DNA of 64,000 nucleotides from NCBI RefSeq assembly GCF_016861655.1, contig NZ_BOLN01000002.1, positions 62,001-126,000 of the forward strand, written 5' to 3'. The notes beneath the pieces were generated by a model. That model was not told where the DNA came from and did not search any database. It worked only from the letters and a program-made list of their open reading frames with translations. Positions 1,625 through 61,971 of this stretch are shown piece by piece; positions within the stretch are counted from its first letter, which is position 1; each line of letters begins with the position of its first letter. Made by a program: the position numbers and the translations under genes. The stretch is from Levilactobacillus lanxiensis. GTDB taxonomy: Bacteria > Bacillota > Bacilli > Lactobacillales > Lactobacillaceae.

Positions 1625-1816
1625 GGTCGTTCCCGGCGGCGGGCTCAACCTGCCCTGCTGTGGGGTCGCTTTCAGCCTGCGGGGCGGGCTTTCAGCTCGA
1701 CTTGAAACCTCGCTGAGGTTCGCGAGTTTCCAAGGTCGTCCCGTGGACTAGGCTGAGAAAGGACCTCAGCCAAGGCCACCGACACAGCTGGTCAGGTTGG
1801 CCCGCCTCTGGTCACT
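1625..1816 (-). repeat. SIR copy 1, subtype A
   Basis: On the minus strand it reads GTGACCAGAGGC, then GTGTCGGTGG, a GGCTGAGG/CCTCAGCC stem, two further hairpins and CCCCACAGC, closing with GCCGCCGGGAACG. Its right end faces the Fur gene start. Part of an outer arm (TGATTTTCACTAGCC) remains at about 1830. Confidence 0.85.
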
Positions 1817-1987
1817 GATAGGGTGCGGTGATTTTCACTAGCCGCTTAGCCCCACTACGAGGTTACCCATCGACCATTTCTATATTTCAATTTAATCTAA
1901 TTCATTCGCGATTGATTCACGAACTAAACAGGTTCACTTTAAACTCACCGGCCAACCAACCCACCGATAAGCCTAACACCCAATTCG

Positions 1988-2196
1988 GTTTAAACCAGTG
2001 TCAGCCGTGAGGGTGGGCAAAATGGACTCAGCCGTGGGATTTCTAACGCGGTTCGCGTTAGAAATGGCGACTTTGAAACTCGCCCTTTGAGGTTCAAAGC
2101 GAGCTTCGAGACCGCTCCTTGGCTCGGAGCGTCCTGCCCACAGCGTTCCGGTCAGTTTTTCTCGTCCGGTAAGGCGACCCCAACCTGTTTAAACCC
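1988..2196 (+). repeat. SIR copy 2, subtype B
   Basis: Bounded by GTTTAAACC-type ends in inverted orientation. It contains GCCGTGGGA, a TTTCTAACGCG hairpin, CTTTGAAAC/GGTTCAAAG, GAGACCGC/GGCTCGGAG and GCCCACAGCG. The right end faces the 3' end of the guanylate-kinase-like gene 37 bp away. It stands back to back with copy 1. Confidence 0.85.
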
Positions 2197-2232
2197 GAAT
2201 TCCCTGTTAGTTTATCATATTTACTGGGAAAC

Positions 2233-2808
2233 TCAACTATCAGCCGTCTCTCCCTGTCGCAACTGCGTCATCAATTCATCCAGCTTCACCTGGGTCTGTT
2301 CCCAGTCGTCGTTGTTTAGCTGAATCGCTTTGCCCCGCAGTGCCAGCGGCATGGTCAGGTCGCGACGATACTCTGGACTGGCTAAGCGCTGGGCCATCAT
2401 TTCTTCATCGTCGCCCCGTTTGCTCAGCCGATGGGCCAGCTTGGTAGACTCGCTAACCGTGAGGAAAATGATGACGGCCTGGTCGCCTAGCTCTTCGGCG
2501 TAGGTGATGGCGCCCTTGCTATCTAACACGATGGCGTCAAATGGTGCGCGTTCAAAGCCACGGGCCAAGCCCTCGCGTGAAGACCCATAGTGGTAGCCGG
2601 CGTACGTCACGGATTCCAGGTAATGATTCTTGGGGAAGCTGGCTTCCGTTTCAAAATAGTAATCGACGCCATCGACTTCACCCTGGCGCGGTGGCCGCGT
2701 CGTGTGGGTGATGACCTTGGTCACGGGATAGTGCGCCACCAGATAATCTTGGACCGTGGTCTTGCCGGTCCCCGTCGCGCCGGTGATCACCAAAACTTTA
2801 TTCGGCAT
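2233..2808 (-). CDS. Guanylate-kinase-like nucleotide kinase
   Basis: A 191-residue P-loop kinase of the guanylate kinase superfamily. The Walker A GATGTGKTT is at residues about 9-17. TTRPPRQGEVDGVDYYF around 37-53 is the GMP-binding region of the family. It lacks the extended family C-terminus, so it may be the second, divergent GMK-like protein common in lactobacilli rather than the essential Gmk. ATG 2808 has a GGAGG site inside the end of the upstream Nudix gene, an 11-bp overlap that implies translational coupling. Confidence 0.8.
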   Translation of the reverse strand: MPNKVLVITGATGTGKTTVQDYLVAHYPVTKVITHTTRPPRQGEVDGVDYYFETEASFPKNHYLESVTYAGYHYGSSREGLARGFERAPFDAIVLDSKGAITYAEELGDQAVIIFLTVSESTKLAHRLSKRGDDEEMMAQRLASPEYRRDLTMPLALRGKAIQLNNDDWEQTQVKLDELMTQLRQGETADS

Positions 2809-3220
2809 GCTGATCCTCCAAGTACGTATTGGCTTGGTCTAACAAGCCCTTTAAGTTGTCATAGCTCAGGCGTTCGCGGGCAATCTTGTAGTCGAACCAG
2901 CCGAACTCACTGATTTCTTCAACCTGCCGCTTAATCTCACTGTCGGCTGGCACCAGCGACGTGTACAGGACCACGTGCTTGTGATGGCCGTTCTTCATGT
3001 CGTAGTCCAAGTCGGCGTGAAACTCGGGATTGATGGCGACGACTAAACTAGTCTCTTCTTTAATTTCACGAACGGCCGTCTGGAGATCCGTTTCATCCCC
3101 CTCGACGTGGCCCTTGGGAAAACCCCAGAAGTGACTGGTGGCACTCTTTAACAGTAAATATTGGATTTGATTGTCGACGAGCCGGTAAACGACCGCGCCG
3201 CTAGCATTTTCGGTAATCAT
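2798..3220 (-). CDS. Nudix hydrolase (diadenosine-tetraphosphatase-like)
   Basis: A 140-residue Nudix protein. The Nudix box lies at about residues 38-60: G(x5)E(x7)REIKEET, which places the divalent metal for cleavage of nucleoside diphosphate derivatives. GFPKGHVE just before it, and the N-terminal GAVVYR, are typical of bis(5'-nucleosyl)-tetraphosphatases. It is the first gene of a two-gene unit with the guanylate-kinase-like gene, consistent with nucleotide housekeeping. The substrate is inferred only from family resemblance. Confidence 0.82.
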   Translation of the reverse strand: MITENASGAVVYRLVDNQIQYLLLKSATSHFWGFPKGHVEGDETDLQTAVREIKEETSLVVAINPEFHADLDYDMKNGHHKHVVLYTSLVPADSEIKRQVEEISEFGWFDYKIARERLSYDNLKGLLDQANTYLEDQHAE

Positions 3221-3648
3221 GTTGCATTGCCCCCTCGAATTAAATAAACTCCTTCTATTTTAAATCGAAACCACTCAGAATGGGTAAAATAAACCCGACT
3301 TTCTCAAAAGCAACCGCTTACTCTCATTGACTTTTAATTTAATACCACGGTACACTATCCAAGACATCATCGCGACTACCAGCCTCAGCCTCCCAAATTA
3401 ATCACAAAAAAGGCTGAAACTGCGCGCGACAATGTGTATCATCATTATATAAGGAAAGTTTTGGTTTAGGTGGTTTCCGCTAGTTGGGCTAAATGACATT
3501 AGCTTTTGATGAATCAGCTAGCAGACAATCACATGACTCACTGCACCCGCGCAATCTTGCTGACGCCGCATTCACAACAGTCTAATTGTCCAACCAGTCT
3601 GCCAGTTGCATTGGCCAGGCAGCTCGGACGGTTTAGCTTTACCGCCAA
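3221..3648. other. Intergenic region with candidate promoter
   Basis: No gene was found here. TTGACT near 3329 followed about 17 bp later by TACACT is a candidate promoter toward the permease, giving a leader of about 500 nt. The segment 3461-3474 (TTGGTTTAGGTGGT) is the inverted complement of 3840-3853, bracketing SIR copy 3. Confidence 0.4.
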
Positions 3649-3837
3649 CGTCAGCCGTGAGGTCAGAGAAAATGGGCTCAGCCGTGGGAGTTACCTTAAC
3701 GGGTTCCCCGTTTAGGTAACTGCTATCTTTGAGACGTGGACTTCGGCTCAAAGTAAGGCTGAAGACCGCCTCTCAGGCTTCGGCCGTGCGCCCACAGCGT
3801 CCCGGCCCATTTTCTCTGACCGGTAAGGCGAGTCAGA
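3649..3837 (+). repeat. SIR copy 3, subtype B
   Basis: Arms GTCAGCC...GAGAAAATGGGC and GCCCATTTTCTC...AGTCAG. The core contains a GTTACCTTAACGGG hairpin, CTTTGAGAC/GGCTCAAAG and GAAGACCGC...AGGCTTC. The right end faces the permease start, so the element probably lies in its 5' leader. Confidence 0.85.
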
Positions 3838-3882
3838 AGACCACCTAAACCAAACAGTTTCAACGACATAAGGAGGCTTTTT

Positions 3883-5278: not shown

Positions 5279-5399
5279 TCGCCTCCAGGATGCTGAAAAC
5301 AGGCCGGTTTGGCGATGGGCGGACGCCCCGAGCCAAAGAACGGTCTCGGGACTGGTAGGCCAGTTTTCAACATCCTTGCGGCTTATACCTGTTTAACCC
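5279..5399 (-). repeat. SIR copy 4, deleted form (D)
   Basis: Starts 2 bp after the permease stop. Outer arms GATGCTGAAAAC and GTTTTCAACATC remain, but only one inner hairpin (GAGACCGTTC/GGCTCGGGG on the minus strand) is left; the first two inner stems are missing. The right end faces the permease. Confidence 0.75.
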
Positions 5400-5596
5400 A
5401 CTGATTGGTTTCTTCAATTATTTATTGTTCCAACAATTAATCTTTGCGTTACACTTACCACAAGACAACTGTTTCATCTCAACTTCTAGTTGCACGCATC
5501 CTATAAATCATGTGCCAGCCAAGAAGTCAGGACAGCTAAACCAATGTAACCCTTGAGCACCAACATTAACCATTTTATCCATCACTCGTTGGCACT

Positions 5597-5872
5597 TAAA
5601 ACCAGTGTGAGCCGCAGGGCTGGTGAAAATGGGCCAGTCGTGGCAGTGACCAGAGGCGAGCCAAGGTGCCCGGCTGTGTCGATGGCCTTGGCTGGGGTAT
5701 TTTCCCAGCCTAGCCCATGGGACAACCTTTGAGACCGCACTTCGGCTCAAAGTTGAGGTGGAAGCCCGCTTCACAGGCTGTAACCGGCCCCACAGCAGGG
5801 CACCTTGAGCTCGCCGCCGGGAACGAACGCGACGCGGCCCATTTTCACCAGCCCGGAGGCGCTGACAACACA
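5597..5872 (+). repeat. SIR copy 5, subtype A, complete
   Basis: One of the fullest copies. Outer arm GCAGGGCTGGTGAAAATGGG pairs with its complement near 5836-5857. Inner arms are GCGAGCC-AAGGTGCCC and GGGCACCTT-GAGCTCGC. The core has GTGTCGATGG, a GGCTGGGG/CCCAGCC stem, CTTTGAGACCGC/GGCTCAAAG and GGAAGCCCGC/GGCTGTAACC. The right end faces PepX. Confidence 0.9.
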
Positions 5873-8390: not shown

Positions 8391-8584
8391 GCGTTCCCGA
8401 CGGTGGGTTCAACCTGCCCTGCTGTGAGGCCGGTTCCAGCCTGAGGAACGGGCTTCCAGCTCGACTTGAAACCTCGCTAAGGTTCGCGAGTTTCCAAGCT
8501 CGCCCCGTGGGCTAGGCTGAATGAGAAACTTCAGCCAAGACCACCGACACAGCTGGGCAAGTTGCCCCACCTCTGGTCACTCAC
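8391..8584 (-). repeat. SIR copy 6, subtype A
   Basis: Begins 15 bp after the pepX stop. The minus strand reads GTGACCAGAGG, GTGTCGGTGG, the stem pair, hairpins with GGAAACTCGC and GGAAGCCCG, CTCACAGCAGG and CCGTCGGGAACGC. The right end faces pepX. Confidence 0.85.
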
Positions 8585-8771: not shown

Positions 8772-8992
8772 CTGGTTAAACTCGTGTCAGCCGCAGGGCT
8801 GGTGAAAATGGGCTCAGCCGTGGGAGTTGCCTTAGCGGGTCCCCCGCTTAGGCAACTGCTATCTTTGAGACTCGCTTCTCAGAGGCTCAAAGTAAGTCTG
8901 GAGACCGCCTTTCGGCTCCAGACGCGCGCCCACAGCGCCACGGCCCAGTTTTCACCAGCCCGGAGGCGTAATCAACACCCAAGTTTAACCAG
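8772..8992 (+). repeat. SIR copy 7, subtype B, complete
   Basis: Ends GGTTAAACTCGTG and CAAGTTTAACC are inverted. Arms GCAGGGCTGGTGAAAATGGG and its complement. The core has a GTTGCCTTAGCGGG hairpin, CTATCTTTGAGAC/GGCTCAAAGTA, TCTGGAGACCGCC/GGCTCCAGA and GCCCACAGCG. The right end faces pepI. Confidence 0.9.
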
Positions 8993-12556: not shown

Positions 12557-12740
12557 ACCGTTCCCGACGGCGGGTTCAAACTGCCCTGCTGTGGGGCCGG
12601 TTCCAGCCTGTGAACCGGGCTTCCACCTCAACTTTGAGCCAAAGTTCGGTCTCAAAGATTGTCCCATGCTCTAAATAGAGAAAAACACTCTATTAAGACC
12701 ATCGACACAGCTGGTCAATTTGACCCGCCTCTGGTCACTG
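12557..12740 (-). repeat. SIR copy 8, subtype A
   Basis: The minus strand reads GTGACCAGAGGCG, GTGTCGATGG, a CTTAATAGAG/CTCTATT stem, CTTTGAGACCG/GGCTCAAAG, GGAAGCCCGG...GGCTGGAACC and CCCCACAGCAGG. The right end faces the ABC-F gene start. Confidence 0.85.
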
Positions 12741-12962: not shown

Positions 12963-13150
12963 TATGTAAGCCGCAGGGCGGGTGAAAATAAGCTCAGCCG
13001 TGGGAGTGGCCTTAGCGGTTTACCGCTTAGACCACTGCTATCTTTGAGACGTGACTTTCGGCTCAAAGTAAGTCCGGAGACCGCCCTTCGGCTCCGGGCG
13101 GCGCCCACAGCGTCACGGCTTATTTTCACCCGCCCAGAGGCGAAAGCAAA
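12963..13150 (+). repeat. SIR copy 9, subtype B
   Basis: Arms GCAGGGCGGGTGAAAATAAGC and the complement near 13115-13140. The core has a GTGGCCTTAGCGG hairpin, CTTTGAGACG/GGCTCAAAG, TCCGGAGACCGCC/GGCTCCGGG and GCCCACAGCG. The right end faces the VOC gene. Confidence 0.88.
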
Positions 13151-15378: not shown

Positions 15379-15661
15379 TAGCCAATTGAAGCCCACTAAA
15401 CAGCAGCTGGCTGGTGTCGTCCGTGTAGTCGAAATAATCATAACCACATGCGGCGGTCGTTGTCAGCGACCAGAGGCAACTTTGCGGACGCAGCTGTGTC
15501 GATGGCGTTGGCTGAGGTTCTTTCTCAGCCTACACCATGGGACGACCTTGGAAACTCGCGCTTCTCAGCGAGGTTTCAAGGCGAGACGGAGGACCGCTCC
15601 ACAGGCCGCAGTCAGTCCCCACAGCAGCGGTAGCGAAGATTGCCGCCGGGAGCGCTGGCCT
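15379..15661 (+). repeat. SIR copy 10, subtype A, in tandem duplication
   Basis: The first unit of a roughly 283-bp direct tandem repeat. The core has GCGACCAGAGGC, GTGTCGATGGCGTTGGCTG, CTTGGAAACTCGC/GAGGTTTCAAGG, GAGGACCGC/GGCCGCAGTC and CCCCACAGCAGCGG. The right end points toward the ABC ATPase gene. Confidence 0.88.
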
Positions 15662-15944
15662 CCACCAATCGAAGCCCACTAAACAGCAGCTAACTGGCGT
15701 CGTCCGTGTAGTCGAAATAATCACAACCACGTGCAGCGGCCGTTGTCAGCGACCAGAGGCAACTTTGCGGACGCAGCTGTGTCGATGGCGTTGGTCGAGG
15801 TTCTTTCTCGACCTACACCATGGGACGACCTTGGAAACTCGCGGTTTTGGCGAGGTTTCAAGGCGAGACGGAGGACCGCCTCTCAGGCCGCAGTCGGTCC
15901 CCACAGCAGCGGTAGCGAAGATTGCCGTCGGGAGCGCTGACAAG
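15662..15944 (+). repeat. SIR copy 11, subtype A, second tandem unit
   Basis: Near-identical to copy 10, including about 65 bp of left flank (CGAAGCCCACTAAACAGCAG). Differences in the second stem (GGTCGAGG/CTCGACC versus GGCTGAGG/CTCAGCC) keep pairing, which supports structure. The right end is 20 bp from the ATPase stop codon. Confidence 0.88.
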
Positions 15945-19145: not shown

Positions 19146-19275
19146 TCGTTGCCCTCGCCCTCCGGGAGACTGCCAATGGACCGTGACGCTGTGGGCGGAC
19201 ACCCAGAGCCAAAAGGCGGTCTCTGGGATGCTGAGTCCATTGGCAGTCTCCCTGCGGCTAAACAACGTTCAACCC
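19146..19275 (-). repeat. SIR copy 12, deleted form (D)
   Basis: Arms GAGACTGCCAATGGAC/GTCCATTGGCAGTCTC and one inner hairpin (GAGACCGCC/GGCTCTGGG on the minus strand), then GTCCGCCCACAGCG. The first two inner stems of subtype B are missing. The right end faces the Phe-operon promoter. Confidence 0.75.
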
Positions 19276-19473: not shown

Positions 19474-19765
19474 GGGCTAAACCAGTGTTAGCCGCAGGGC
19501 TGGGAAAACTGGGCCGGTCGTGGAAGTGACCAGAGGCAGATCAAAGTGACCGGCTGTGTCGATGGTCTTAGCTGAGGTTTCCCACTCAGCTTAGCCCATG
19601 GGACAACCTTTGAGACCGCACTCTGGCTCAAAGTTGAGGTGGAAGCCCGCCCTTTGGCTGTAACCGGCCCCATAGCCGGGCACTTTGAATCCGCCGCCGG
19701 GAACGGAAGCGACCAGGCCCAGTTTTCACCAGCCCGGAGGCGCAAACAAAAACACAAGTTTAACC
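19474..19765 (+). repeat. SIR copy 13, subtype A, complete
   Basis: Ends GGGCTAAACCAGTGTTAGCC and CACAAGTTTAACCC. Outer arms GCAGGGCTGGGAAAACTGGGCC and its complement. The core has GTGTCGATGG, CTTTGAGACCGC/GGCTCAAAG and GGAAGCCCGCC/GGCTGTAACC. The right end touches the stop codon of the DegV gene. Confidence 0.9.
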
Positions 19766-20879: not shown

Positions 20880-21099
20880 AACCAACACGGCCAACCTCAG
20901 TGACCAGAGGCGAATCAAGTTTCCCGGCTGTGTCGATGTTCTTAGCTGAGCGGGCTACTCTCAGCTTAGAACATGGGGCGACCTTTGAGACCGCTCTTTG
21001 GCTAAAAGTCGAGGTGGCAGACCGCCCCTCAGGCTGGCACCGACCCCACAGCAGGGATACTTGAATTCGCCGCCGGGAACGACGGTCGGCCTGTTGGTC
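20880..21099 (+). repeat. SIR copy 14, subtype A
   Basis: Arms ACCAACACGGCC and GGCCTGTTGGT. The core has GTGACCAGAGGCG, GTGTCGATG, a CTTAGCTGAG/CTCAGCTTAG stem, CTTTGAGACCGC...GGCTAAAAG, GGCAGACCGC...AGGCTGGCACC and CCCCACAGCAGGG. The right end lies 33 bp before the -35 box of the Trp-leader operon. Confidence 0.88.
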
Positions 21100-27697: not shown

Positions 27698-27915
27698 GGG
27701 CTAAACCTGTGTCAGCCGCAGGGCTGGTGAAAATGGGCTCAGCCGTGGGAGTTGCCTTAGCGGGTTTCCCGCCTAGGCAACTGCTATCTTTGAGACTCGG
27801 TCTATGAGGCTCAAAGTAAGTCTGGAGACCGCCTTTCGGCTCCAGACGTGCGCCCACAGCGCCACGGCCCATTTTCACCAGCCCGGAGGCGCTGCCAAGC
27901 ACACAAGTTCAACCC
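27698..27915 (+). repeat. SIR copy 16, subtype B, complete
   Basis: Ends GGGCTAAACCTGTGTCAGCC and CACAAGTTCAACCC. Outer arms GCAGGGCTGGTGAAAATGGG and its complement. The core matches copy 7 almost base for base. The right end abuts the stop codon at 27916. Confidence 0.92.
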
Positions 27916-29448: not shown

Positions 29449-29746
29449 GAGTTCGACTCTGTTTACGCCTCCGGGCTGGGTGAAAATGAGCCAGAACGTG
29501 GTGTCGTTCGTTCCCGACGGCGGGCTCAAAGTGCCCTGCTGTGGGGTCGGTTCCAGCCTGTGAAGCGGGCTTCCACCTCAACTTTGAGCCTGAGGAACGG
29601 TCTCAAAGGTTGCCCCATGCTCTAAACTGAGAAAATCACTCAGTTAAGACCATCGACACAGCTGGGCGCTTTGGCCCGCCTCTGGTCACTTACATTGACC
29701 ACATTGTTCATTTTCACCAGCCCTGCGGCTGACAGTGATTTAACCC
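29449..29746 (-). repeat. SIR copy 17, subtype A, complete
   Basis: Outer arms CCGGGCTGGGTGAAAATGAGC and TCATTTTCACCAGCCCTGCGG. The minus-strand core has GTGACCAGAGGCG, GTGTCGATGG, CTTAACTGAG/CTCAGTTTAG, CTTTGAGACCG/GGCTCAAAG and GGAAGCCCGC. The right end faces the MucBP gene start. Confidence 0.9.
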
Positions 29747-32345: not shown

Positions 32346-32530
32346 ACTGCGCCTGCGGTAATTCAAGCCCTTCACCCTGTGGGGACCGGCTCCAGCCTGA
32401 GGTTCTGGCTTCCGCCTCGACTTGAAACCTCGCCAAGACCGCGAGTTTCCAAGCTCGTCCCGTGCTGTAAGCCGTCAAAAGCGACGACTAACACCACCGA
32501 CACAGGGTTCGGTCTTGATTACCTCCGGAT
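32346..32530 (-). repeat. SIR copy 18, subtype C
   Basis: The minus strand has CTGTGTCGGTGGTGTTAG, CTTACAGCACGGGACGA, CTTGGAAACTCGC.../GGTTTCAAG, GGAAGCCAG.../GGCTGGAGCC and CCCCACAGGG. Outer arms GGTAAT.../...ATTACC, tips CGCCTGCGG/CTCCGG. The right end faces the hydrolase stop. Confidence 0.85.
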
Positions 32531-32797: not shown

Positions 32798-33094
32798 GGG
32801 CTAAACCAGTCTTAGCCGCAGGGCTGGGAAAATTGGGCCGGTCGTGGGAGTGACCAGAGGCGCGCCAAGGTGACCGGCTGTGTCGATGGTCTTGGCTGGG
32901 GTATTTTCCCAGCCTAGCCCATGGGACAACCTTTGAGACCGCTCCCCAGGCTCAAAGTTGAGGTGGAAGCCCGCTTCTCAGGCTGGAACCGGTCCCACAG
33001 CAGGGCACCTTGAGCGCGCCGTCGGGAACGGACGCGACCAGGCCCAGTTTTCACCAGCCCGGAGGCGCGGCAACAACACAACCAACCAAGCCCG
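32798..33094 (+). repeat. SIR copy 19, subtype A, complete
   Basis: Begins GGGCTAAACCAGTCTTAGCC. Arms GCAGGGCTGGGAAAATTGGGCC and its complement, GCGCGCC-AAGGTGACC inner arm. The core has GTGTCGATGG, GGCTGGGG/CCCAGCC, CTTTGAGACCGC/GGCTCAAAG, GGAAGCCCGC/GGCTGGAACC and CCCACAGCAGGG. The right end abuts the stop codon at 33095. Confidence 0.92.
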
Positions 33095-35829: not shown

Positions 35830-36021
35830 TCCCGGTTTCCGCCTGCGGTAGTCTGGTAGCTCCACCGCCTCCAGCCTGGAAAGCGGTCTTCCGGCTCGCC
35901 TTTGAGCCTCGAAGATCACGAGTCTCAAAGACGTCCCGTGGTGTAAGCTGAGAAAAATCACTCAGCTAACGCCACTGTCACAGGGGTTCCGTACCAGTCT
36001 ACCTCCGGTTCCAACCGGGAA
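35830..36021 (-). repeat. SIR copy 20, subtype C
   Basis: Arms CCCGGTT.../...AACCGGG and TACCAGTCTACCTCC. The minus-strand core has CTGTGACAGTGGCGTTAGCTGAG, CTCAGCTTACACCACGGGACG, CTTTGAGACTCG/GAGGCTCAAAGG and GGAAGACCGC/GGCTGGAGG. The right end faces the amidase start. Confidence 0.85.
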
Positions 36022-36220: not shown

Positions 36221-36445
36221 GTTTGGCTTGGCCGTTGTCAGCGACCAGAGGCAACCTTGCGGACGCAGCTGTGTCGATGGCGTTGGCCGGCGTTCTTTGC
36301 CGGCCTAGGCCATGGGACGACCTTGAAGATGGACTTTTCAGCTTCAAGGCGAGACGGAGGACCGCCCCTCAGGCCGCAGTCGGTCTCCACAGCAGCGGGA
36401 GCAAGGATTGCCGCCGGGAGCGACCACCCAACGACCAAGCCAAAA
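36221..36445 (+). repeat. SIR copy 21, subtype A
   Basis: Arms TTTGGCTTGG and CCAAGCCAAA. The core is close to copies 10/11: GCGACCAGAGGCAAC, GTGTCGATGGCGTTGGC, GACCTTGAAGA.../CTTCAAGGCG, GAGGACCGCC/GGCCGCAGTC and CCACAGCAGCGG. The right end faces the SDR gene stop. Confidence 0.88.
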
Positions 36446-37660: not shown

Positions 37661-37856
37661 CGCCCAGAACCGGAGGTAGAGGGGTACGGAACCCCTGTGT
37701 CGGTTTCGTTAGTCGGGGTTCCTTCCCGGCTTACGAAACGGGACGACCTTTGAGACTCGTGCTTTTCGAGGCTCAAAGGCGAGCCGGAAGCCCGCTTCCC
37801 AGGCTGCAGGCGTTCCCCACAGGGGTGAAGTACCCCTCTACCGCAGGTGGCGGGCT
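37661..37856 (+). repeat. SIR copy 22, subtype C
   Basis: Arms CGGAGGTAGAGGGGTA and TACCCCTCTACCGC. The core has CTGTGTCGGTTTCGTTAGTC, CTTACGAAACGGGACGACC, CTTTGAGACTCG/GAGGCTCAAAGG, CGGAAGCCCGC/GGCTGCAGGC and CCCCACAGG. The right end is 13 bp from the stop of the small gene at 37870. Confidence 0.9.
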
Positions 37857-41168: not shown

Positions 41169-41384
41169 TTGGGCTATCATCATTCGCCTGCGGCTGCCAG
41201 AGATTCCGGCGTCTGTGGGGAACGCCTGCGGCCTGAGAAACGGTCCTCCGGCTCGGTTTGAAGCCCGAGAACCCACCGGTCTCCAAACACGTCCCACGCT
41301 GTAAGCTGAGAAAACACTCAGCTAACACCGTCGACACAGCTACCTCCATCTCTGTCCTCCTCCGGCTAACGTTGTATCCCAACC
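41168..41384 (-). repeat. SIR copy 23, subtype C
   Basis: Tips GGTTGGG and CCCAACC. The minus strand has AGCTGTGTCGACGGTGTTAGCTGAG, then CTCAGCTTACAGCGTGGGACG, GTTTGGAGACC/...GGTTT, GAGGACCG/GGCCGCAGGCG and CCCCACAG. The right end faces the MMPL terminator. Confidence 0.85.
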
Positions 41385-42486: not shown

Positions 42487-42681
42487 GTGAGCCGGGGGGC
42501 AGCTGGGGACAGAGCCACCTGTGTCGATGGTGTTAGACCGGGCGATTTTCCCCGGACTTACAGCATGGGACGTGTTTGGAGACGGTGCCCTTCCCGGCTT
42601 CAAACCGAGCTTGCGGACCGCCCCTCAGGCCGCAAGCGTTCCCCACAGGTGGCGGCGTCCCCAGAGGCCGCAGACGTCATG
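42487..42681 (+). repeat. SIR copy 24, subtype C
   Basis: The core has CTGTGTCGATGGTGTTAGACCG, CTTACAGCATGGGACG, TTTGGAGACGG.../GGCTTCAAAC, GCGGACCGCC/GGCCGCAAGC and CCCCACAGG. The right end is 12 bp from the MFS stop codon. It is the last copy before the 15-kb repeat-free block. Confidence 0.85.
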
Positions 42682-51730: not shown

Positions 51731-51784
51731 CTCACCGCTGTCAAATCTGACGGTGACATCCCCTGCTCACACTTCAACGTCAGG

Positions 51785-53249: not shown

Positions 53250-53263
53250 GTTAAGGTTCACCC

Positions 53264-54100
53264 CTATTCGTTATTTACATGTTTACGTTGACGCAACCAC
53301 AGTGCTAATGCCGTACCCCCGAGGCCCAGAATGCCAAGGAGTCCAATGATAGCAAGTAAGACTGTTTGATTGCTGTCTTCACCTGTACCAGGTAGGTTCC
53401 CCTTCTTGGAATGGGACTTAGCTACAGTCGTTGGGGTAGATGTATTACTTGAACCCGTAGTTGTACCAGCATTACCTGGAGCGTTCACAGATTCTTTACT
53501 AAACTCGCTGGTGCTATGACTGTTTGGCTTCGTAGAAGATGAATTTACAGTAGAAGAACCTGAGTTACCATTGGAATCAGTGTTGCTATCAGTAGAATGA
53601 CTACCACCGTTTTCATCTTGGACCGTGGATTCTTCATACTCATGGGCATCTTGGGTATCAGCTACCGGATTGGTGCTACTTGAGTCATCTTCAATACCAG
53701 TACCACCCTTGTTATCCCCAGCTTCAGCTGCTTCCTCATCATTGCTATCCTTTTTGATAGATCCATCGCTGTTGTATCCTTCTCTGTACTGGTTCAAGGC
53801 AAGACTATATGACTGCAAGTTATCTACTGTTGCCTTATCGTCCTTCAAGGATGTCTGTGCTCCCTTGTATACTTCCTGTAGGCCACTATCTTTGGGATTC
53901 TTTGCCGCAATATCCTTGAAATAATTCACTGCATTCTGCAAATCCGCTTTTGCTTCAGCAACCGTCTGCGTTTTCATCTTTGCTGCTTGCGCTGTGGCAA
54001 TACCGACTTGTGGAAGAACAGTTTCAGTACCCCCAATAGCTATAACAGCCACACCAGTCAGCATCAACCCAGTTAATTTCTTCTTACTCATACTTGCCAT
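53264..54100 (-). CDS. LPxTG-anchored Ser/Asp-rich surface protein (cassette 2)
   Basis: A 278-residue precursor: signal peptide with cleavage near AQA, an alpha-helical head of about 100 residues (VAEAKADLQNAVNYFKDIA...), an acidic/Ser-rich stalk and LPGTG about 35 residues from the end, followed by a hydrophobic helix and RQRKHVNNE. The stalk and anchor are almost identical to the protein at 48832. Cell-wall displayed by sortase. ATG 54100 follows AAAGG. Confidence 0.85.
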   Translation of the reverse strand: MASMSKKKLTGLMLTGVAVIAIGGTETVLPQVGIATAQAAKMKTQTVAEAKADLQNAVNYFKDIAAKNPKDSGLQEVYKGAQTSLKDDKATVDNLQSYSLALNQYREGYNSDGSIKKDSNDEEAAEAGDNKGGTGIEDDSSSTNPVADTQDAHEYEESTVQDENGGSHSTDSNTDSNGNSGSSTVNSSSTKPNSHSTSEFSKESVNAPGNAGTTTGSSNTSTPTTVAKSHSKKGNLPGTGEDSNQTVLLAIIGLLGILGLGGTALALWLRQRKHVNNE

Positions 54101-54260
54101 ACCACTCGACACCTTTCCAATATTAGTTATGTAACCGAGTATTGCTTACACAAGAATTGACTTGTGATTGAACAAAGATTATCTGGATTGATGGCAATAA
54201 GTTAGATTGTGTCCTAACTGACAGTTTAGGTACAATTGTCGACAAAAAGGTAAAGACAAC

Positions 54261-54297
54261 AAAATACCAACCCAATTAAAGGTTGGTATTTATTATC
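54261..54297 (-). terminator. Terminator of the cassette 2 SH3-like gene
   Basis: AAATACCAACC/GGTTGGTATTT with T-rich flank on the minus strand, after the stop at 54324. Confidence 0.75.
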
Positions 54298-54323
54298 TAA
54301 TATTATTCAATTAATATTTCACG

Positions 54324-55151
54324 TTAATATTTTGCTGCATTGATATACTTATCAGCCACTTTAATACCATTTTTGATGTCCGTTTGAGTAACTAGCCCTT
54401 TAGCATGCCCACTAGCGAAAGTCACTTTAATATCATTCGTATACCATTGATATTGAGTAGTATAATCTTGGTCTACCAAACGGTGAATATCTTTATGGGT
54501 ATAATTTTGCTTCTTACCCCAGGCGTCCCAGGCGTTAGGATGATTCTTTAAGATAGTACCCCACTGATTAATCTTGTCACGGAAAGTAGCGACGTTTTTA
54601 AGCCCCATGAAGTTGGAGTTAGATACAGCATCAGAGATAATCTTTACAGATACCTTATCCGAAGCTACAGAAGGATCTGAAGAAGTCTTCTTCAGCGGTG
54701 TAACATGTGTCTTCTTGGCAATTTTCACGTTAGTCGTTGGCGCAATGACCGTCTTGTTAGATACCTTGGTCACTTTCCCCTGCTTGCCCTTTAAGTTGCC
54801 TGTCCAAATCCAACCTTTAACTGAGCCTTTTGCGTTCTTGACATAACGGTAAGTAGCCGTTTTGCCAGTAGACTTCTTGACACGAACACTTTCAGTCGAA
54901 TAAAAGACATGAGTCTTTTTAGTCGTGACATGCTTTGTCAGATAACGATTCGAGTAAAGAACGATTCCCTGCTTGGGGTGAGCCTTCTTGAACGTACTCT
55001 TCTTATAGTGGGTGTTCTTCGTAATTTTGGTTACTCGTACGCCTGTGGTCTTAACGGCCTTGGCTGACGCATCGACAGTTATGGCAGCACCGCCCACAAA
55101 CAAGGCAACAGACAAAGCAGAAACGGCTTTGATTATCTGAGTCTTTTTCAT
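54324..55151 (-). CDS. Secreted protein with SH3/GW-like region (cassette 2)
   Basis: A 275-residue paralogue of the protein at 49905. The signal peptide and the Lys/Thr-rich SH3/GW-like segment are about 90 percent alike by eye, while the C-terminal part after about residue 150 is different (HPNAWDAWGKKQNYTHK). ATG 55151 has GGAGG; the frame is open further upstream. First secreted gene of cassette 2. Confidence 0.75.
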   Translation of the reverse strand: MKKTQIIKAVSALSVALFVGGAAITVDASAKAVKTTGVRVTKITKNTHYKKSTFKKAHPKQGIVLYSNRYLTKHVTTKKTHVFYSTESVRVKKSTGKTATYRYVKNAKGSVKGWIWTGNLKGKQGKVTKVSNKTVIAPTTNVKIAKKTHVTPLKKTSSDPSVASDKVSVKIISDAVSNSNFMGLKNVATFRDKINQWGTILKNHPNAWDAWGKKQNYTHKDIHRLVDQDYTTQYQWYTNDIKVTFASGHAKGLVTQTDIKNGIKVADKYINAAKY

Positions 55152-55293
55152 GCTAATTTCCTCCAAATTTAAGAAAATATTTTTGACATTGATTACATCT
55201 GACAAGCGACTGAGATCACTAGCGTTTTATGCTAGCTAGTGTTCGCTGTCAGGGCTTCATTGTTGCCGATGCCTAACTGGCCGTTTTGCTTAA

Positions 55294-55334
55294 CTCTATT
55301 TTAAAAGCACCGTTCCGGCGCTTTTAAAATAGAG
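55294..55334. repeat. 19-bp palindrome upstream of cassette 2
   Basis: Arms CTCTATTTTAAAAGCACCG and CGGCGCTTTTAAAATAGAG (one A-C mismatch), loop TTC. The pair at arm position 6 is T-A here and G-C in the copy at 50813-50853. Confidence 0.85.
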
Positions 55335-55385
55335 CCACGGAGATAATTGCAACAACGACCTCTCCGGTCATCAAGGCTTAATCTG

Positions 55386-55991
55386 TTAAGCCTTGATTTC
55401 TTTCAGATGCCAGGCGGCGTCATGTTCTACTTTTGTAACATCTGTCAAATTATCTAAACAATCTGTATCCTTGCGAAGTGGATGTCCACCATATTTTTTA
55501 TTTTCATTTCCCACCAGACTGATAACATGCATATTGTCATAAAGACTGGTATTTCCAATCATATCCATCAACTCTACATACGAACTTTGCAAAGCCTTAC
55601 ACAATTCATCTGAACCTTTAACATTGCTTAAGTCTCCCGTAGCAACCAGAAGTTCAGCTTCATCACTAGCATTATCTATAATACTTTTAACGACCTTAAC
55701 GTTTTTACTTTTCTGTTCATTGATTTCATGAATATACTTATCTAAATCGGAAGTAGCCACCACAGGTGTTACATTCACGATAATCATTTTTTTGTAATTC
55801 TTAGCAACATGATCTACCAATCGTTGAATAGTTGAATCCATTTCATATTCATCCCCAACACTGGGGTTTTCCATTAGAACAATTAAGTCTTGCTCTTTGT
55901 CAGAATCAACTGCACTAATCTCCAACGAATACCGACAATTCATACGGTTGATATCAGTAACTTTATAGTTCTCTGGATAAGATTTAATCAT
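55386..55991 (-). CDS. DUF1643-domain protein
   Basis: A 201-residue cytoplasmic protein. CRYSLEISAV, LIVLMENPSVGDEYEMDSTIQRLVDH-type segment (about 15-55) and KYGGHPLRK near the end are the landmarks of DUF1643, a family of unknown function often carried on mobile elements and plasmids. ATG 55991 has GAAGGAG; a GTG three codons earlier is too close. It lies between cassette 2 and the decayed XRE gene, with no counterpart in cassette 1. Low GC compared with the flanks. Confidence 0.75.
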   Translation of the reverse strand: MIKSYPENYKVTDINRMNCRYSLEISAVDSDKEQDLIVLMENPSVGDEYEMDSTIQRLVDHVAKNYKKMIIVNVTPVVATSDLDKYIHEINEQKSKNVKVVKSIIDNASDEAELLVATGDLSNVKGSDELCKALQSSYVELMDMIGNTSLYDNMHVISLVGNENKKYGGHPLRKDTDCLDNLTDVTKVEHDAAWHLKEIKA

Positions 55992-56074
55992 GCTAAGCAC
56001 TCCTTCAGAATATCCTCAAAACCTCACAAAAAATTTACCAGTTTTTAAAATTTGTTGTTCACAAGTTTAATTTT

Positions 56075-56095
56075 ACGTCTCTAAAATAGAGACGT
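56075..56095. promoter_or_regulatory. Palindromic XRE-type operator
   Basis: ACGTCTCTA-AAA-TAGAGACGT, a perfect dyad. The surrounding bases (GTTCACAAG.TTAATTTTAC) match 51018-51037 upstream of the intact XRE gene. Confidence 0.6.
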
Positions 56096-56193
56096 CAATA
56101 GCGTTAATCTCTATATCTGCAATTAGTTATGAGATATATCCCTGTTTTGTCGCATTTTGTTGTGAAAAATGCAATGCAGTTTGTGCTGATAGT

Positions 56194-56325
56194 TGGTCCA
56201 AAACAGCCACCAAACTCGCGAGTCTACGAGATATGATGGCCCCTACACAGACAAAATTGATCAGCGTTCTTGGCTTGAATAAAACCTTCATGAGAATCCA
56301 TCAGGCCAAGATTACCGTCACATAA
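56194..56325 (+). pseudogene. Decayed XRE repressor gene
   Basis: The frame reads SKTATKLASLRDMMAPTQTK then LISVLGLNKTFMRIHQAKIT and stops. It aligns with MSKTLPERITDLREAKGITQ and onward of the XRE protein at 51150, but the start codon is TGG and the protein is cut after the HTH. It occupies the same position relative to cassette 2 as the intact gene does to cassette 1. Confidence 0.7.
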
Positions 56326-56485
56326 CTATCAAAGAGTTTTCCAGTTTTGAACGAAACGGATTCAAACAGATACCGCGAGACCAACACGTCTAAGCCAGCC
56401 AAATCCTATAAATCAAAAACTACCTTCCCATACAATCGGGCAGACAATTTATTTAACACCTTAATTTCTATGGCTACCCACACAA
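56326..56485. other. Spacer
   Basis: No gene could be supported between the XRE remnant and the terminator at 56486. Confidence 0.3.
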
Positions 56486-56529
56486 AAAGGCTTCCGACCA
56501 GTACATGTTGTACTGATCAGAAGCCTTCT
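56486..56529 (-). terminator. Terminator of the GNAT/phosphatase unit
   Basis: AAGGCTTC...CCAGTACATG..GTACTG...GAAGCCTT, with TTTTT on the minus strand. Confidence 0.85.
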
Positions 56530-56546
56530 TTAAGTATAATGTGTCT

Positions 56547-56981
56547 CTATTCCCCAGTATACTGCACCGTCTGATGCTGGATACCAGCCTCTTCAAATGC
56601 GTCACCGATGGGTTCAAAGCCCAATTCTTTGTAGAAATCCATGGCCGTCAACTGGGCGTCCAATTCGACGTGCGCCACGTCTGAGCGCTTGGCGTCGTGG
56701 ATGATCTGCTTGATCAATTCCGCTGCGTAGCCGTGCTTACGTTGATCAGCGACCGTGGCCACGCGTTGAATCTTCACGCGGTTCCCCGCCATCATATCAA
56801 TCCGTGCCGTCGTGACGGGTTCATCGTCCACGTACCCAACGTAGTGCATCTTGTCTTCGTCGGTCCCGTCCAGTTCCACCTTAGGGTCAATCCCCTGTTC
56901 TTCAATGAACACGTCCTTACGCATTTGCAGGGCGTCTTGGTATACGGGGTTCAATTTACCCCAAGCCATTCTAATTTCCAT
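56547..56981 (-). CDS. GNAT acetyltransferase, ElaA-like
   Basis: A 144-residue GNAT protein; RKDVFIEEQGID at about residue 21 is typical of the ElaA branch. The acetyl-CoA loop is VATVADQRKHGYAAELI (RKHGYA in place of the classical R/QxxGxG/A). I prefer ATG 56981 (MEIRMAW) with GGATGG spacing; ATG 56993 sits directly on the GAGG. It follows the phosphoglycerate-mutase-family gene, probably in the same transcript. Confidence 0.82.
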   Translation of the reverse strand: MEIRMAWGKLNPVYQDALQMRKDVFIEEQGIDPKVELDGTDEDKMHYVGYVDDEPVTTARIDMMAGNRVKIQRVATVADQRKHGYAAELIKQIIHDAKRSDVAHVELDAQLTAMDFYKELGFEPIGDAFEEAGIQHQTVQYTGE

Positions 56982-56999
56982 CAAACCATCCATCCTCGC

Positions 57000-57665
57000 T
57001 TAATCTTTTTGGTTGTAGCTTAATACTTGAATGTCGTCCGGCGTCAGCAGCAGCTTCGTGAGACTCCCATTCGCTGGCCGTTCACTCAGGTCATACTTGC
57101 CCTGACCGTAACGTTCCATCAGGCTCAGCAGCGTGTTGCCGTGGCTGACCATCAAGACGTTATCGCCGTCTTTCAAATCGGGGTTGTGGCGCATCAGGTT
57201 AAATCCTTGATCCACCCGCGCCCAGTACTCTTCGTTGTTTTCAGCTTGGCGGAACGGGTCGGCTTCCTTCAAGAAGTCCTTGGCCTTGCCAATCGAGTAT
57301 TTCTCTTCAATCGCCTTAAACGTCGGCACCCCATGCGGCGCACCCGCCACGTACCAGGCCTGTGCCATGTCGGTGCCTTCGTAGTACCCGTAGAACTCTT
57401 CGCGGAAGAAGGACGCCGTCGTCAGCTGAGCAGCCGGTGCCGAGTGGTTAGCGGCCAAAATGGCCTTGGCCGTCTGTTCAGCCCGCGTCGTGTCACTGCA
57501 GTAAGCTGCAGCGAATTGCACATCCTGCAGGCGTTTACCCGCATTCTCAGCGTCCGCGATACCCGCCTCAGTCAATGGTGAATTGCTCCAGCCTTGGAGT
57601 TTATTGTAGATATTAAAATACGTTTGCCCATGACGGACCACGTACAGCGTGAGTTGTTTCGTCAT
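57000..57665 (-). CDS. Histidine phosphatase (phosphoglycerate mutase family)
   Basis: A 221-residue enzyme with the phospho-His motif VRHGQT at about residue 9 and the second catalytic His in MVSHGNT at about 173. It resembles broad-specificity phosphatases of the GpmB/PhoE type rather than glycolytic Pgm. ATG 57665 has AAAGGTGTG. First gene of a two-gene unit with the GNAT gene. Confidence 0.9.
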   Translation of the reverse strand: MTKQLTLYVVRHGQTYFNIYNKLQGWSNSPLTEAGIADAENAGKRLQDVQFAAAYCSDTTRAEQTAKAILAANHSAPAAQLTTASFFREEFYGYYEGTDMAQAWYVAGAPHGVPTFKAIEEKYSIGKAKDFLKEADPFRQAENNEEYWARVDQGFNLMRHNPDLKDGDNVLMVSHGNTLLSLMERYGQGKYDLSERPANGSLTKLLLTPDDIQVLSYNQKD

Positions 57666-57805
57666 AGCTAGTCACACCTTTCATTTAAAATCTATCTCTA
57701 GTGTACCAAAGATACTGCGGTAGCGGTTACAATTTCGCAGTCTGACTTAAAGTTTTCCTAAACTTGCCCCCAAAACGGCCACAGCCCCCCGAACTTTGGT
57801 ACGCT

Positions 57806-58019
57806 TGGTTGAACGTCATTGGACTCGCCTCCGGGGCGGTGAAAACTGAGCCGGAACGCGGTGGGCGCCGCCTGGAGCCAAAAAGCGGTCTCCAGACTTA
57901 CTTTGAGCCGCACGGACCGCGTCTCAAAGATAGCAGTTCCCTAAGCGGTAAACCGCTAAGGGAACTCCCACGGCTGAGCTCATTTTCACCACCCCTGCGG
58001 CTGATACTGGTTCAACCCC
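57806..58019 (-). repeat. SIR copy 25, subtype B, complete
   Basis: Ends GGTTGAACGTCAT and CTGGTTCAACC. Arms CGGGGCGGTGAAAACTGAGC and its complement. The minus strand has GAGTTCCCTTAGCGG hairpin, CTATCTTTGAGACGCGG/GGCTCAAAGTA, TCTGGAGACCGC/GGCTCCAGG and GCCCACCGCG. The right end faces the phosphatase start. Confidence 0.9.
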
Positions 58020-58293: not shown

Positions 58294-58509
58294 GTTGCCG
58301 TGCCCCACTCGGTGTGCTGGAGCGGTTAGCCACCCTCCCTGTGTCGGTGGTCTTTGGTGAGTGATCTTCTCACCTTAGACCACGGCCGAGTTGGGAGAAT
58401 TACGGGTTTTGTAAGGCTCCCAACCGCCCTGAAGACCGCACCTCAGGCTTCAGGTCTGCCCCACAGGAAGGGAGGCTGACCAGTGGAAGCATACCGAGTG
58501 GGGCACAAC
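58294..58509 (+). repeat. SIR copy 26, subtype C
   Basis: Tips GTGCCCCACTCGGT and ACCGAGTGGGGCAC. The core has CCCTGTGTCGGTGGTCTTTGG, CTTAGACCACGGCCGA, GTTGGGAGA.../GGCTCCCAAC, CTGAAGACCGC/AGGCTTCAGG and CCCCACAGG. The right end points toward copy 27 and the LtaS gene. Confidence 0.88.
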
Positions 58510-58561: not shown

Positions 58562-58754
58562 GTCAGGTGGGCCGGAGGTGATCAGACAGAACCCCGTGTC
58601 GGTGGTTTTAGTCGAGCGTTCTTCTCGACTTAGACCACGGCCGAGCTTGTAGACTCACGGTCTTGGTGAGGCTTCAAGTCGCCCTGAAGACCGCATCTCA
58701 GGCTTCAGGTCTGCCCACGGGAGTGGCGTCTGGTCACCGGAGGCTCACCTGACC
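58562..58754 (+). repeat. SIR copy 27, subtype C
   Basis: Tips GTCAGGTG.GCCGGAGGTGA and TCACCGGAGGC.CACCTGAC. The core has CCGTGTCGGTGGTTTTAGTCGAG, CTCGACTTAGACCACGG, CTTGTAGACTC/GAGGCTTCAAG, CTGAAGACCGC/AGGCTTCAGG and CCCACGGG. The right end faces the LtaS promoter. Confidence 0.88.
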
Positions 58755-60954: not shown

Positions 60955-60959
60955 CTCGC

Positions 60960-61161
60960 GGTCAATTGGCCGCCTGCGTCGGTTAGGTGCTCCCACCCTA
61001 TGGGGCGCGGCCGAAGCCTGTGAAGCGGTCTTCGCCCTTGTGTTCAAGCCTCGCCCAACCCGCGAGTCTCGAACGCATCCCGTGCTGTAAGGCCGGCAAA
61101 TCACCGGCCAACACCACCGACACAGGGTTCCGCACCTAACCGACTCCGGCTGAGATTGGCC
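60960..61161 (-). repeat. SIR copy 28, subtype C
   Basis: Tips GGTCAATTGGCC and GATTGGCC. The minus strand has CTGTGTCGGTGGTGTTGGCCGG, CCGGCCTTACAGCACGGGATG, TCGAGACTCG.../GGCTTGAAC, GAAGACCGC/AGGCTTCGGCC and CCCATAGGG. It starts 5 bp after the LtaS stop; the right end faces it. Confidence 0.87.
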
Positions 61162-61242
61162 ACGTACCTTCTGGCTGGTTGGCTTGATAGGTAGTCTGAT
61201 TGGTTGTGAACTGTTCTATACGAAATTGATTTTTATGCAAAT

Positions 61243-61289
61243 AAAGAAGCTGTCCGTTCAATCTTTACGATTGTCCGAGCAGCTTCTTT
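61243..61289 (+). terminator. Terminator, probably of the LtaS transcript
   Basis: AAAGAAGCTG..CGG/CCG..CAGCTTCTTT hairpin on the plus strand. Confidence 0.75.
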
Positions 61290-61335
61290 GCGTTTATGGA
61301 ATTTTCTTCTATGGTTAAGGTAAGTAGTTGTGGCT

Positions 61336-61457
61336 AATCATCAATGCGTGGTGAAGTTACCGCACTATTGATGTGCTATTTCGAACGGGACAGACCAATC
61401 ATCAATGCGTGGTGAAGTTACCGCACTATTGATGTGCTATTTCGAACGGGACAGACC
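61336..61457 (+). repeat. Exact tandem repeat, 2 x 61 bp
   Basis: Units 61336-61396 and 61397-61457 are identical. Each contains the inverted pair CATCAAT/ATTGATG around GTGGTGAAGTTACCGC. Not related to the SIR core. Confidence 0.9.
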
Positions 61458-61473
61458 AACCACCACTACGAAG

Positions 61474-61718
61474 GGAGTAAAACCACGCCCGGGCCACGGT
61501 ACTTCGCGTTCCAACCCATTTTACTGGTCGGTACACAATCTCAGCCGTAAGGCAGCTAGGTGCGGAAGCCTGTGTCGGTTTAGTTTGTCGGCGTCCTCTG
61601 CCGGCTTACTAAACGGGACGCCTTAGAGACGCCGAACTCAGGCGGCTCTAAGCGCCTTGGAAGACCGCCCCTCAGGCTTCCAAGGTCGCCCCACAGGCTA
61701 GAAACAACAAAAACAAAA
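61474..61718 (+). repeat. SIR copy 29, subtype C, tandem unit 1
   Basis: The core has CTGTGTCGGTTTAGTTTGTCGG, CTTACTAAACGGGACG, CTTAGAGACGCC/GGCGGCTCTAAG, TTGGAAGACCGCC/AGGCTTCCAA and CCCCACAGG. The 3' outer arm is missing (replaced by CTAGAAACAACAAAAAC) where the tandem copy begins. Confidence 0.88.
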
Positions 61719-61971
61719 GGAGTAAAACCATGTCTGGGCCACGGCACTTCGCGGTCCAACACCCTTTACTGGTCAGACCACAATCTCAGCCGTAAGGCAG
61801 CTAGGTGCGGAAGCCTGTGTCAGTTTAGTTTGTCGGCGTCCTCCGCCGGCTTACTAAACGGGACGCCTTAGAGACTCCGCACTTGGGAGGCTCTAAGCGC
61901 CTTGGAAGACCGCCCCTCAGGCTTCCAAGGTCGCCCCACAGGCTGGGAGCACCTAGCGGCCGTCGGCGGCA
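61719..61971 (+). repeat. SIR copy 30, subtype C, tandem unit 2
   Basis: Repeats copy 29 with its left flank (GGAGTAAAACCATG..GGGCCACGG). The outer arm is complete here: GCAGCTAGGTGC and GCACCTAGCGGC. Hairpin loops differ while stems persist. The right end is 32 bp from the reductase stop. Confidence 0.88.

Follow-up and report, generated by a model that had tools for sequence, protein, structure and literature searches.

Structured intergenic repeats with strand-biased covariation in Levilactobacillus lanxiensis and other Lactobacillaceae

We describe a family of folded intergenic repeats in a 64,000-nucleotide stretch of the Levilactobacillus lanxiensis genome (the window; contig NZ_BOLN01000002.1, positions 62,001 to 126,000). 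The copies share a predicted fold with covariation and a strand bias, lie between genes with a polarity towards them, and are present or absent at equal places in different species. The evidence supports a real repeat family, as a first-pass annotation of the same DNA had proposed: copies occur outside the window, and Rfam 15, named beforehand as a check, gave no match at gathering thresholds for the window, nor any for five loci from other genera. At E ≤ 5, Rfam gave three weak window matches, none of them on an element. No earlier description was found in the open-access literature, subscription papers lying outside the scope of the search. New findings that go beyond the annotation are a polarity with respect to genes, a bias between strands, the gene-end arms and the orientation kept between two species. 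We tentatively favor, at a little under an even chance, the reading that the repeats are a single Lactobacillaceae element, non-autonomous, mobile and now mostly dormant, with the folded sense strand as its mobility signal.

Two covariance models were used: R1, built from 40 of 57 listed copies, and R2, built from 31 of 32 B-type candidates. R1 gave 35 matches in the window, eight of which were antisense to a better overlapping match, leaving 27 elements, and R2 contributed two shorter ones. The resulting 29, or approximately one element per 2.2 kb, bear out the density claimed in the first-pass annotation at one copy fewer than the thirty it had counted. The sequence blocks it had pointed out are real, the core motif CTGTGTCGRT occurring 288 times genome-wide vs. 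nine times for the reversed control. In a 464-kb sample made up of the window and 400 kb from contig 1, R1 gave 137 matches, or 123 after removal of overlaps; these represent 122 elements, one being split at a 20-kb border. None of the 123 lies inside a gene called by our simple purpose-made caller, and all 29 window elements are likewise outside called genes, as the annotation had placed nearly all copies. Extrapolation from this sample gives ~800 copies in the 3.03-Mb genome. The genome-wide spread proposed earlier therefore holds, while the figure of over a thousand was somewhat high, element density being higher in the window than in contig 1. In whole-genome searches, the best 150 of 1312 candidates were scored with R1 and the best 150 of 1413 with R2. 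The 150 R1 copies so listed are scattered on at least 14 contigs and show no overlap with the 80 listed R2 places that belong to this genome, giving a total of at least 230 non-overlapping copies. Among relatives within the genus, 22 of 23 were R1-positive, and matches were found in 73 of 301 Lactobacillaceae genomes and in 11 of 40 genera. One genome of the same genus, G021, had no match with R1 or R2, and copy number within the genus thus ranges from 0 matches to at least 230 in this genome. The covariance-model search of the genome and its relatives, proposed in advance as a check, revealed many copies beyond the window. The assignment of the DNA to the Lactobacillaceae also stood, the window PepX being 99% identical to that of Levilactobacillus wangkuiensis and L. 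mulengensis.

The window elements carry cores of several types (scores in bits, R1 unless indicated). A-type cores lie at 1638..1805 (- strand; 169.0), where the core is internally deleted in L. mulengensis, at 12569..12728 (-; 166.6), 20910..21071 (+; 152.7), 36251..36412 (+; 149.0) and 37676..37842 (+; 158.2), and, in divergent form, at 32356..32523 (-; 139.8). Another A-type core (29519..29679, -; 168.8) stands 89 nt ahead of the next gene's start, and one at 41193..41357 (-; 131.4) follows a gene stop and a terminator-like hairpin. A tandem pair with a 283-bp unit (repeat D18) is formed by A-type cores at 15476..15644 (+; 158.8) and 15759..15926 (+; 163.6), with a B-type core at the latter place in two relatives. 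A-type cores set in B-type arms are found upstream of pepX (5656..5815, +; 172.9), where the same arms enclose a B-type core in L. wangkuiensis, at 19536..19695 (+; 148.8), where the arm terminates at the facing gene's stop codon, and at 32860..33020 (+; 171.1). Past the pepX stop, an A-type core (8402..8570, -; 151.0) occupies a position at which elements also occur in other species and in Furfurilactobacillus; its P4 hairpin is swapped between species. B-type cores (R1 and R2 scores) lie at 2017..2162 (+; 47.1, 131.3), 12978..13134 (+; 66.8, 154.3) and 57839..57988 (-; 62.0, 158.8), upstream of a bcaP-like gene (3667..3817, +; 69.3, 150.2), just upstream of a pip promoter predicted by score (8803..8955, +; 68.8, 161.3), and at 27723..27883 (+; 63.7, 169.2), again with an arm terminating at the facing gene's stop codon. 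The two R2 contributions are short C-type elements, one immediately past the stop of the bcaP-like gene (5292..5417, -; R2 32.8) and one at 19169..19268 (-; R2 35.3). Further elements lie at 35847..36002 (-; 102.7), 58321..58486 (+; 116.0) and 58577..58739 (+; 112.1), directly past a lipoteichoic acid synthase-like gene (60978..61143, -; 115.1), and between a terminator-like hairpin and the facing gene's stop (42501..42668, +; 130.6). A second tandem pair has a 245-bp unit (repeat D11; 61555..61714, +, 91.7; 61797..61961, +, 103.6). The settings given for 5292..5417, 41193..41357 and 42501..42668 were read from the sequence itself.

In the shared predicted fold, a long stem of inverted repeats is capped by a four-way junction from which three hairpins branch. 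In the R1 alignment, 95.6% of 1919 cells pair, vs. only 30-44% when the columns are slid by 1-3, and both-side changes occur in 35 of 48 pairs; in B-type copies, 97.0% of 1364 cells are paired. De novo folding of 22 copies from three other genera recovered the same plan, with both-side changes in 42 of 43 pairs. Invariant columns are also present outside the paired positions of the core. When wobble was compared between strands, the ratio of G-U to A-C was 85:5 in the core, or 46:5 with one invariant U-G pair set aside, and a symmetric 18:14 in the outer stem. The core excess of 46:5 implies that the sense strand probably folds as a single strand. Judging from a ratio of 31:1 in 24 A-type copies flanked on either side by genes opposed to the sense strand, it would do so even where neither flanking gene transcribes it. 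Among orthologous pairs, the core bias is weaker (26:11).

The elements are also oriented with respect to genes. The 3' end is nearer to a gene in 114 of the 123 copies in 464 kb, in 113 of 126 across Levilactobacillus and in 32 of 34 in other genera (the cross-species counts start from 177 of 178 matches, one overlap being removed, and leave out contig-edge cases). At the 3' end of a gene an element is thereby read in antisense, at the 5' end in sense. It is conceivable, if somewhat unlikely, that they are selected cis elements serving the host, each copy folding within a 5' leader, a 3' untranslated region or read-through RNA as an mRNA stabilizer or insulator. Copies do lie near genes: among 60 scored copies facing a gene start, 26 are within 102 nt of it, leaving scant space for an intervening promoter. 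Orthologues also persist between the compared species pair, where element counts are equal in 33 of 49 intergenic regions and orientation is kept in 41 of 41 matched copies. In the same pair, all 36 base pairs changed on both sides still pair and none broke, and single changes kept the pair in 32 cases and lost it in 20, against an expected 0.33. Host service is, however, at odds with a sense bias that is as strong where both flanking genes oppose the sense strand, and with the antisense reading at gene 3' ends vs. the sense reading at 5' ends. Neither the matchless G021 of the same genus nor the differing copy number in 16 of the 49 regions fits it well.

Differences between species were followed at individual loci. 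In L. brevis ATCC 14869, pepX and pip lie ~80 nt apart, vs. 695 nt with two elements here, and at C1:145608-146007 the gap in four genomes of the genus is 74-115 nt long and holds no element. Within the species pair, the differences examined come down to a lost core, a tandem change or one core exchanged for another, and the seven differing regions that were aligned contained no clean insertion junction and no readable target duplication. A lone 328-bp difference can also be explained as a deletion between direct repeats. Likewise, an apparent core insertion at two loci of G012 with an identical junction was discarded, as deletion at a short direct repeat explains it equally well.

Element ends are inverted repeats, yet the outer arm sequence varies by locus. 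Arm-to-arm length is 100-350 bp in 69 of 72 pairs in 716 kb; the other three span 1.76-1.92 kb, and one of these bridges two known elements. In 48 of 75 A-type copies, the arms are complementary locus by locus, with a mean duplex energy of -32.1 for own arms vs. -22.0 for swapped ones, and 27 of those 48 have a family-like arm in common. In addition, in 8 of 41 cases the far arm holds, in inverted form, a stretch of the facing gene's end that scores higher than the swapped controls' 99th percentile. Inverted gene-end copies are not a general trait of these genes: the 99th percentile of the end's own control is exceeded by 6 of 47 gene ends that have an element and by 5 of 220 that have none; of those five, one adjoins an element past the distance cut and four have a partner ≤42 nt from the stop codon. 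Complementarity between an arm and the downstream gene start showed no excess (1 of 27). Copying of spacers from donor loci by 5' transduction was also rejected, 62 of 75 spacers having no non-self match in 464 kb; the other 13 mostly match other elements. Two spacers, one behind C1:22915 and one behind C1:124903, resemble each other at 78% along 74 nt.

Template switching has been published as a mechanism for RNA hairpins, as set out in PMC8794818. Replication alone could in principle make, lengthen and correct such inverted repeats as DNA palindromes with no selection on RNA, a reading that the arm complementarity, the inverted gene-end stretches and the symmetric outer-stem wobble all suit, as does the clustering of both-side changes in some elements of the species pair. 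We nevertheless consider it unlikely as a full account, because template switching predicts neither the core strand bias nor the invariant unpaired core columns, and dispersal to hundreds of sites is left unexplained. Separate small RNA genes, driven individually from a promoter in the spacer behind the 5' end, would suit a folded sense strand and a spacer that is always at least 123 nt in the 123 copies, but are highly improbable: no conserved motif was found upstream of the arms, and 20 copies between convergent genes showed no sense promoter enrichment (5.83 sense, 6.06 antisense, 5.90 shuffled, on a promoter scale), while the slight sense excess at 30 copies between co-directional genes (7.07, 6.44 and 6.32, respectively) is also explained by the gene's own promoter.

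According to the mobile-element reading that we favor, the folded single strand, whether RNA or DNA, would be the recognition target of an enzyme, and the recognized element would be inserted at gene borders. The sense-strand fold may be needed for spreading, because its signature is equally strong where flanking genes do not transcribe the sense strand. The outer arms would be lengthened or repaired through template switching during replication, because they are locus-specific, lack strand bias and are able to copy a neighboring gene's end in inverted form. Since the differences examined in the species pair are losses, tandem changes and exchanges of cores, the family is probably mostly dormant there today. 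A narrower version is doubtful, namely that this is the first bacterial SINE-like family, with a folded non-coding single strand as mobility substrate and a fixed-polarity insertion at gene borders that duplicates the target in inverted form.

Several observations count against mobility. The orientation kept throughout the species pair is as compatible with old residents as with mobile copies, substitution rates of 0.041 at paired vs. 0.107 at unpaired positions reveal a constraint for which pure dormancy would give no reason, and the strand bias weakens in orthologous pairs. Moreover, neither RVT_1 nor Y1_Tnp is found in all carriers. RVT_1 (PF00078) is present in 6 of 24 Levilactobacillus genomes, including this one, and its absence from the other 18 led us to reject a reverse transcriptase of group II intron or retron derivation as a necessary partner; G002 and G020 also lack it with at least 72 R1 matches each. 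A Y1 transposase, the partner type of REPs (REP/RAYT), was rejected on the same grounds, Y1_Tnp (PF01797) being present in 17 of the 24 and absent in seven. It is absent in G012 despite at least 150 R2 matches, and G002 has neither domain. In 716 kb, over the 69 short arm pairs and the long span that bridges two known elements, no arm-bounded unit resembled an autonomous parent. Carriage by plasmids or phages was dismissed after one A-type query each returned no similar record.

Bacteria often carry small structured repeats, but this multi-helix element, with strand-specific covariation at hundreds of sites, would, if mobile, be an unusually well documented example of repeats spread by a folded nucleic acid, here in food-associated lactobacilli. 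The family would explain much of this genome's long intergenic space and represents a practical gap in annotation. It also offers hundreds of natural replicates for the birth, repair and loss of hairpins at known loci, and opens the question of which enzyme moves structured elements that lack an obvious transposase. On the SINE-like version, the far arm would hold an inverted copy of the neighboring gene's last codons.

Known systems resemble the family in part. Like MITEs, the elements are short (<600 bp), non-coding and outside called genes. MITEs have terminal inverted repeats common to all copies; the ends here are inverted repeats with outer arms that differ by locus. Integron attC sites stand in a cassette array beside an integrase, and the spread of the 150 listed copies over at least 14 contigs is unlike a single array. 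The bcr1 element, from another Firmicute group (Bacillus cereus), is likewise structured and dispersed, differing in its description as ~155 bp long with target duplications. REP/BIME, ERIC and Correia elements are single hairpins or MITE-like, REPs and ERICs can adjoin stop codons, and we know of no multi-helix junction with covariation among them. The long abundant RNA of Lactobacillus salivarius is reportedly a single megaplasmid RNA of the ROOL family and not a dispersed repeat. What the present family has in common with these two groups is, respectively, the form of intergenic palindromic repeats (mentioned in PMC3049150) and that of a lactobacillus non-coding RNA (PMC5643018). BOX of Streptococcus pneumoniae and S. 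suis, with its boxA, boxB and boxC modules, comes close as a modular, structured, intergenic, high-copy repeat; in PMC3049150, BOX is described as currently dormant, predicted to fold upon transcription, changing size through its modules and over-represented between convergent genes (16 of 86 BOX). Unlike BOX as there described, the present element combines a four-way junction supported by covariation and strand bias with a polarity towards the nearer gene and with arms that vary by locus and are able to copy the end of a gene, and it spans several genera of the Lactobacillaceae.

The first-pass annotation had claimed about 30 structured repeats in 64 kb, and covariance models R1 and R2, the second representing the B-type core variant of the element, recovered 27 and 2 elements, respectively. 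The 27 remain from 35 R1 matches after removal of eight antisense duplicates, and the two added by R2 are short. R1 was built from 40 copies, out of 57 listed, from 464 kb of genome (the window plus 400 kb of contig 1), and R2 from 31 B-type copies. The 40-copy alignment folds into two nested stems, the long outer P1 and the inner P2 (CTGTG/CACAG), and, inside them, a four-way junction bearing hairpins P3, P4, and P5. Standard pairs fill 95.6% of its 1919 pair cells vs. 30-44% once partners are shifted by 1-3 columns, and the covariation score is 0.493 vs. 0.054-0.104; in the B-type alignment, 97.0% of 1364 cells are paired. The same plan emerged from model-free alignment and de novo folding of 22 R1 matches beside pepX in Companilactobacillus, Furfurilactobacillus, Lactiplantibacillus, and one uncultured genome, with both-side changes in 42 of 43 pairs. 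No named repeat of this form had been recognized initially, and Rfam gave no match in the window or at five loci of other genera; relaxing the cut-off to E ≤ 5 brought up three weak window matches, all of them outside the elements. P4 and P5 often share a terminal motif, GA-CCGC...GG, in which a short C-C/G-G pairing comes after an unpaired A; this could be a double protein-binding site.

As anticipated, copies are present beyond the window, in the rest of the genome, in genus relatives and in other genera of the Lactobacillaceae. L. lanxiensis carries at least 230 copies: each model gave at least 150 places, and no overlap was seen between the 150 R1 places and the 80 listed R2 places compared with them. 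The 464-kb sample gave 123 matches, with one element double-counted at a border, and extrapolates to ~800 genome-wide. Matches occurred in 22 of 23 genus relatives and in 0 of 16 genomes from other families of the order. Across the Lactobacillaceae, 73 of 301 genomes, from 11 of 40 genera, were positive at E ≤ 1e-8 in a survey with stricter filters that scored at most nine candidates per genome, the model E-values being rough. One Levilactobacillus genome (G281) had no match among its nine scored candidates, and another (G021) had zero matches with R1 or R2. The latter, at 2.4 Mb, offers a natural control for element effects, although it may hold copies too divergent for the models. Within the window, a 15-kb stretch (42669-57838) lacks the element; it encodes a G2P-like replication protein (46614-47522; PF23343) and holds two blocks ~4.4 kb apart, 83-93% alike, whose ORFs have no Pfam matches. 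This stretch may be a recent arrival not yet reached by the repeats.

The element is polarized towards genes. With gene calls from our own simple caller, 0 of 123 elements lay inside genes, and in 114 of 123 the 3′ end was nearer a gene than the 5′ end; the median core-to-gene distance was 30-35 nt facing a stop codon (n = 62) and 116-143 nt facing a gene start (n = 61). Pairs diverging towards their two flanking genes were common. Among pepX-locus matches, polarity held for 113 of 126 in Levilactobacillus species and for 32 of 34 outside the genus, in a count over 177 of 178 matches (one overlap dropped, weak matches and three near-identical Furfurilactobacillus milii genomes kept) with 17 contig-edge cases set aside; none of the 177 lay inside a gene. 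Among 60 scored elements facing a gene start (61 in all), 12 had a gap promoter score more than 2 SD above shuffles, and 26 sit no more than 102 nt from the start, leaving little promoter room.

Past the conserved core, the stem runs into arms of locus-specific sequence that are complementary within each locus. In the 48 of 75 A-type copies that were tested, arms from the same locus gave a mean duplex energy of -32.1 and swapped arms one of -22.0; 27 of these 48 share a family-like arm. When the far arm was compared with the last 40 nt of the gene in 41 of the 62 stop-facing elements (gap ≤60 nt), eight held an inverted gene-end copy above the 99th percentile of swapped controls, three of them including the stop codon (contig 1, 137161, 27772, and 153337). 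At a longer gap, the arm at contig 1, 232936 carries a 13-nt inverted gene-end copy, stop included. Spacers behind the contig 1 elements at 22915 and 124903 share a 74-nt stretch at 78%, although neither part was called an element.

Comparison with a close relative (G012; collinear contig, ~93% coding identity) covered 49 element-bearing intergenic regions between anchored genes, with counts equal in 33 and different in 16 (32 and 17 before a border-split element was corrected). Orientation was kept in 41 of 41 matched elements, at a median identity of 0.92; six pairs, with values of 0.62-0.71, appear to have exchanged cores, and core exchange within the same arms was seen upstream of pepX, as was a P4 hairpin swap after it. 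In the 34 pairs at identity ≥0.80, change rates were 0.041 at paired vs. 0.107 at unpaired sites; where both sides had changed, 36 pairs remained paired and 0 were broken, and single changes left 32 paired and 20 broken. The size differences in the 16 unequal regions are 80-232 nt (12 regions), 264 and 490 nt (two regions, fitting tandem units), 339 nt (one) and 9 nt (one). When seven of the differences were aligned, six had kept the arms and lost the core in whole or in part, and the seventh comprises the entire 328 bp. In G012 (contig 3, 45558 and 49824), the whole core is gone at an identical junction, with a mini-hairpin, GCC-GGTAA-GGC, in intact arms. Tandem multiplication occurs at 15382-15846 and 61458-61947 of the window (units ~245-283 bp), and G012 has three tandem copies (contig 3, 114047-114694) vs. 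one here. Since four congeneric genomes have no element at contig 1, 145608-146007, and a gap there of only 74-115 nt, this copy was probably gained in the present lineage. Likewise, the gap between pepX and pip is 695 nt here and ~80 nt in L. brevis ATCC 14869.

In the 40-copy alignment, G-U outnumbered A-C cells by 85:5 in core helices (46:5 minus one invariant U-G pair) vs. 18:14 in P1, and between G012 and L. lanxiensis, core changes from or to Watson-Crick pairs involved G-U and A-C at 26:11, those of P1 at 7:6. Since folding of the other strand would swap G-U and A-C, constraint as a single sense strand appears to act on the core but not on the outer stem. The ratio was 31:1 in 24 A-type copies with both flanking genes antisense to the element, and 25:1, 18:3, and 6:1 in the remaining arrangements. 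No excess of sense promoters was found behind the 20 copies lying between convergent genes; in all, 108 of 123 copies were scored. That the bias is equal where neighbors leave the sense strand untranscribed, together with the lack of promoter enrichment, argues that the fold was more important to the element's own spread than to a local transcript; pair variants handed down from parent copies would produce the same picture. At unpaired sites of 34 orthologous elements, per-base substitution was asymmetric (C>T 0.072 vs. G>A 0.030), which may reflect transcription of the sense strand or its exposure as a single strand.

The element is most likely a structured mobile repeat of the non-autonomous kind that used to be active and is now largely dormant, and whose arms would have been formed and repaired by template switching. 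As published, that mechanism accounts both for double changes arising at once and for reverse-complement copies of flanking sequence (PMC8794818). Searches of 24 Levilactobacillus genomes for RVT_1 (in six) and Y1_Tnp (in 17) brought out no partner enzyme; G002, with at least 72 R1 matches, lacks both. BOX (PMC3049150) and our element are alike in modular build, intergenic place and apparent dormancy, but differ in the junction fold, the polarity and the gene-end arms.
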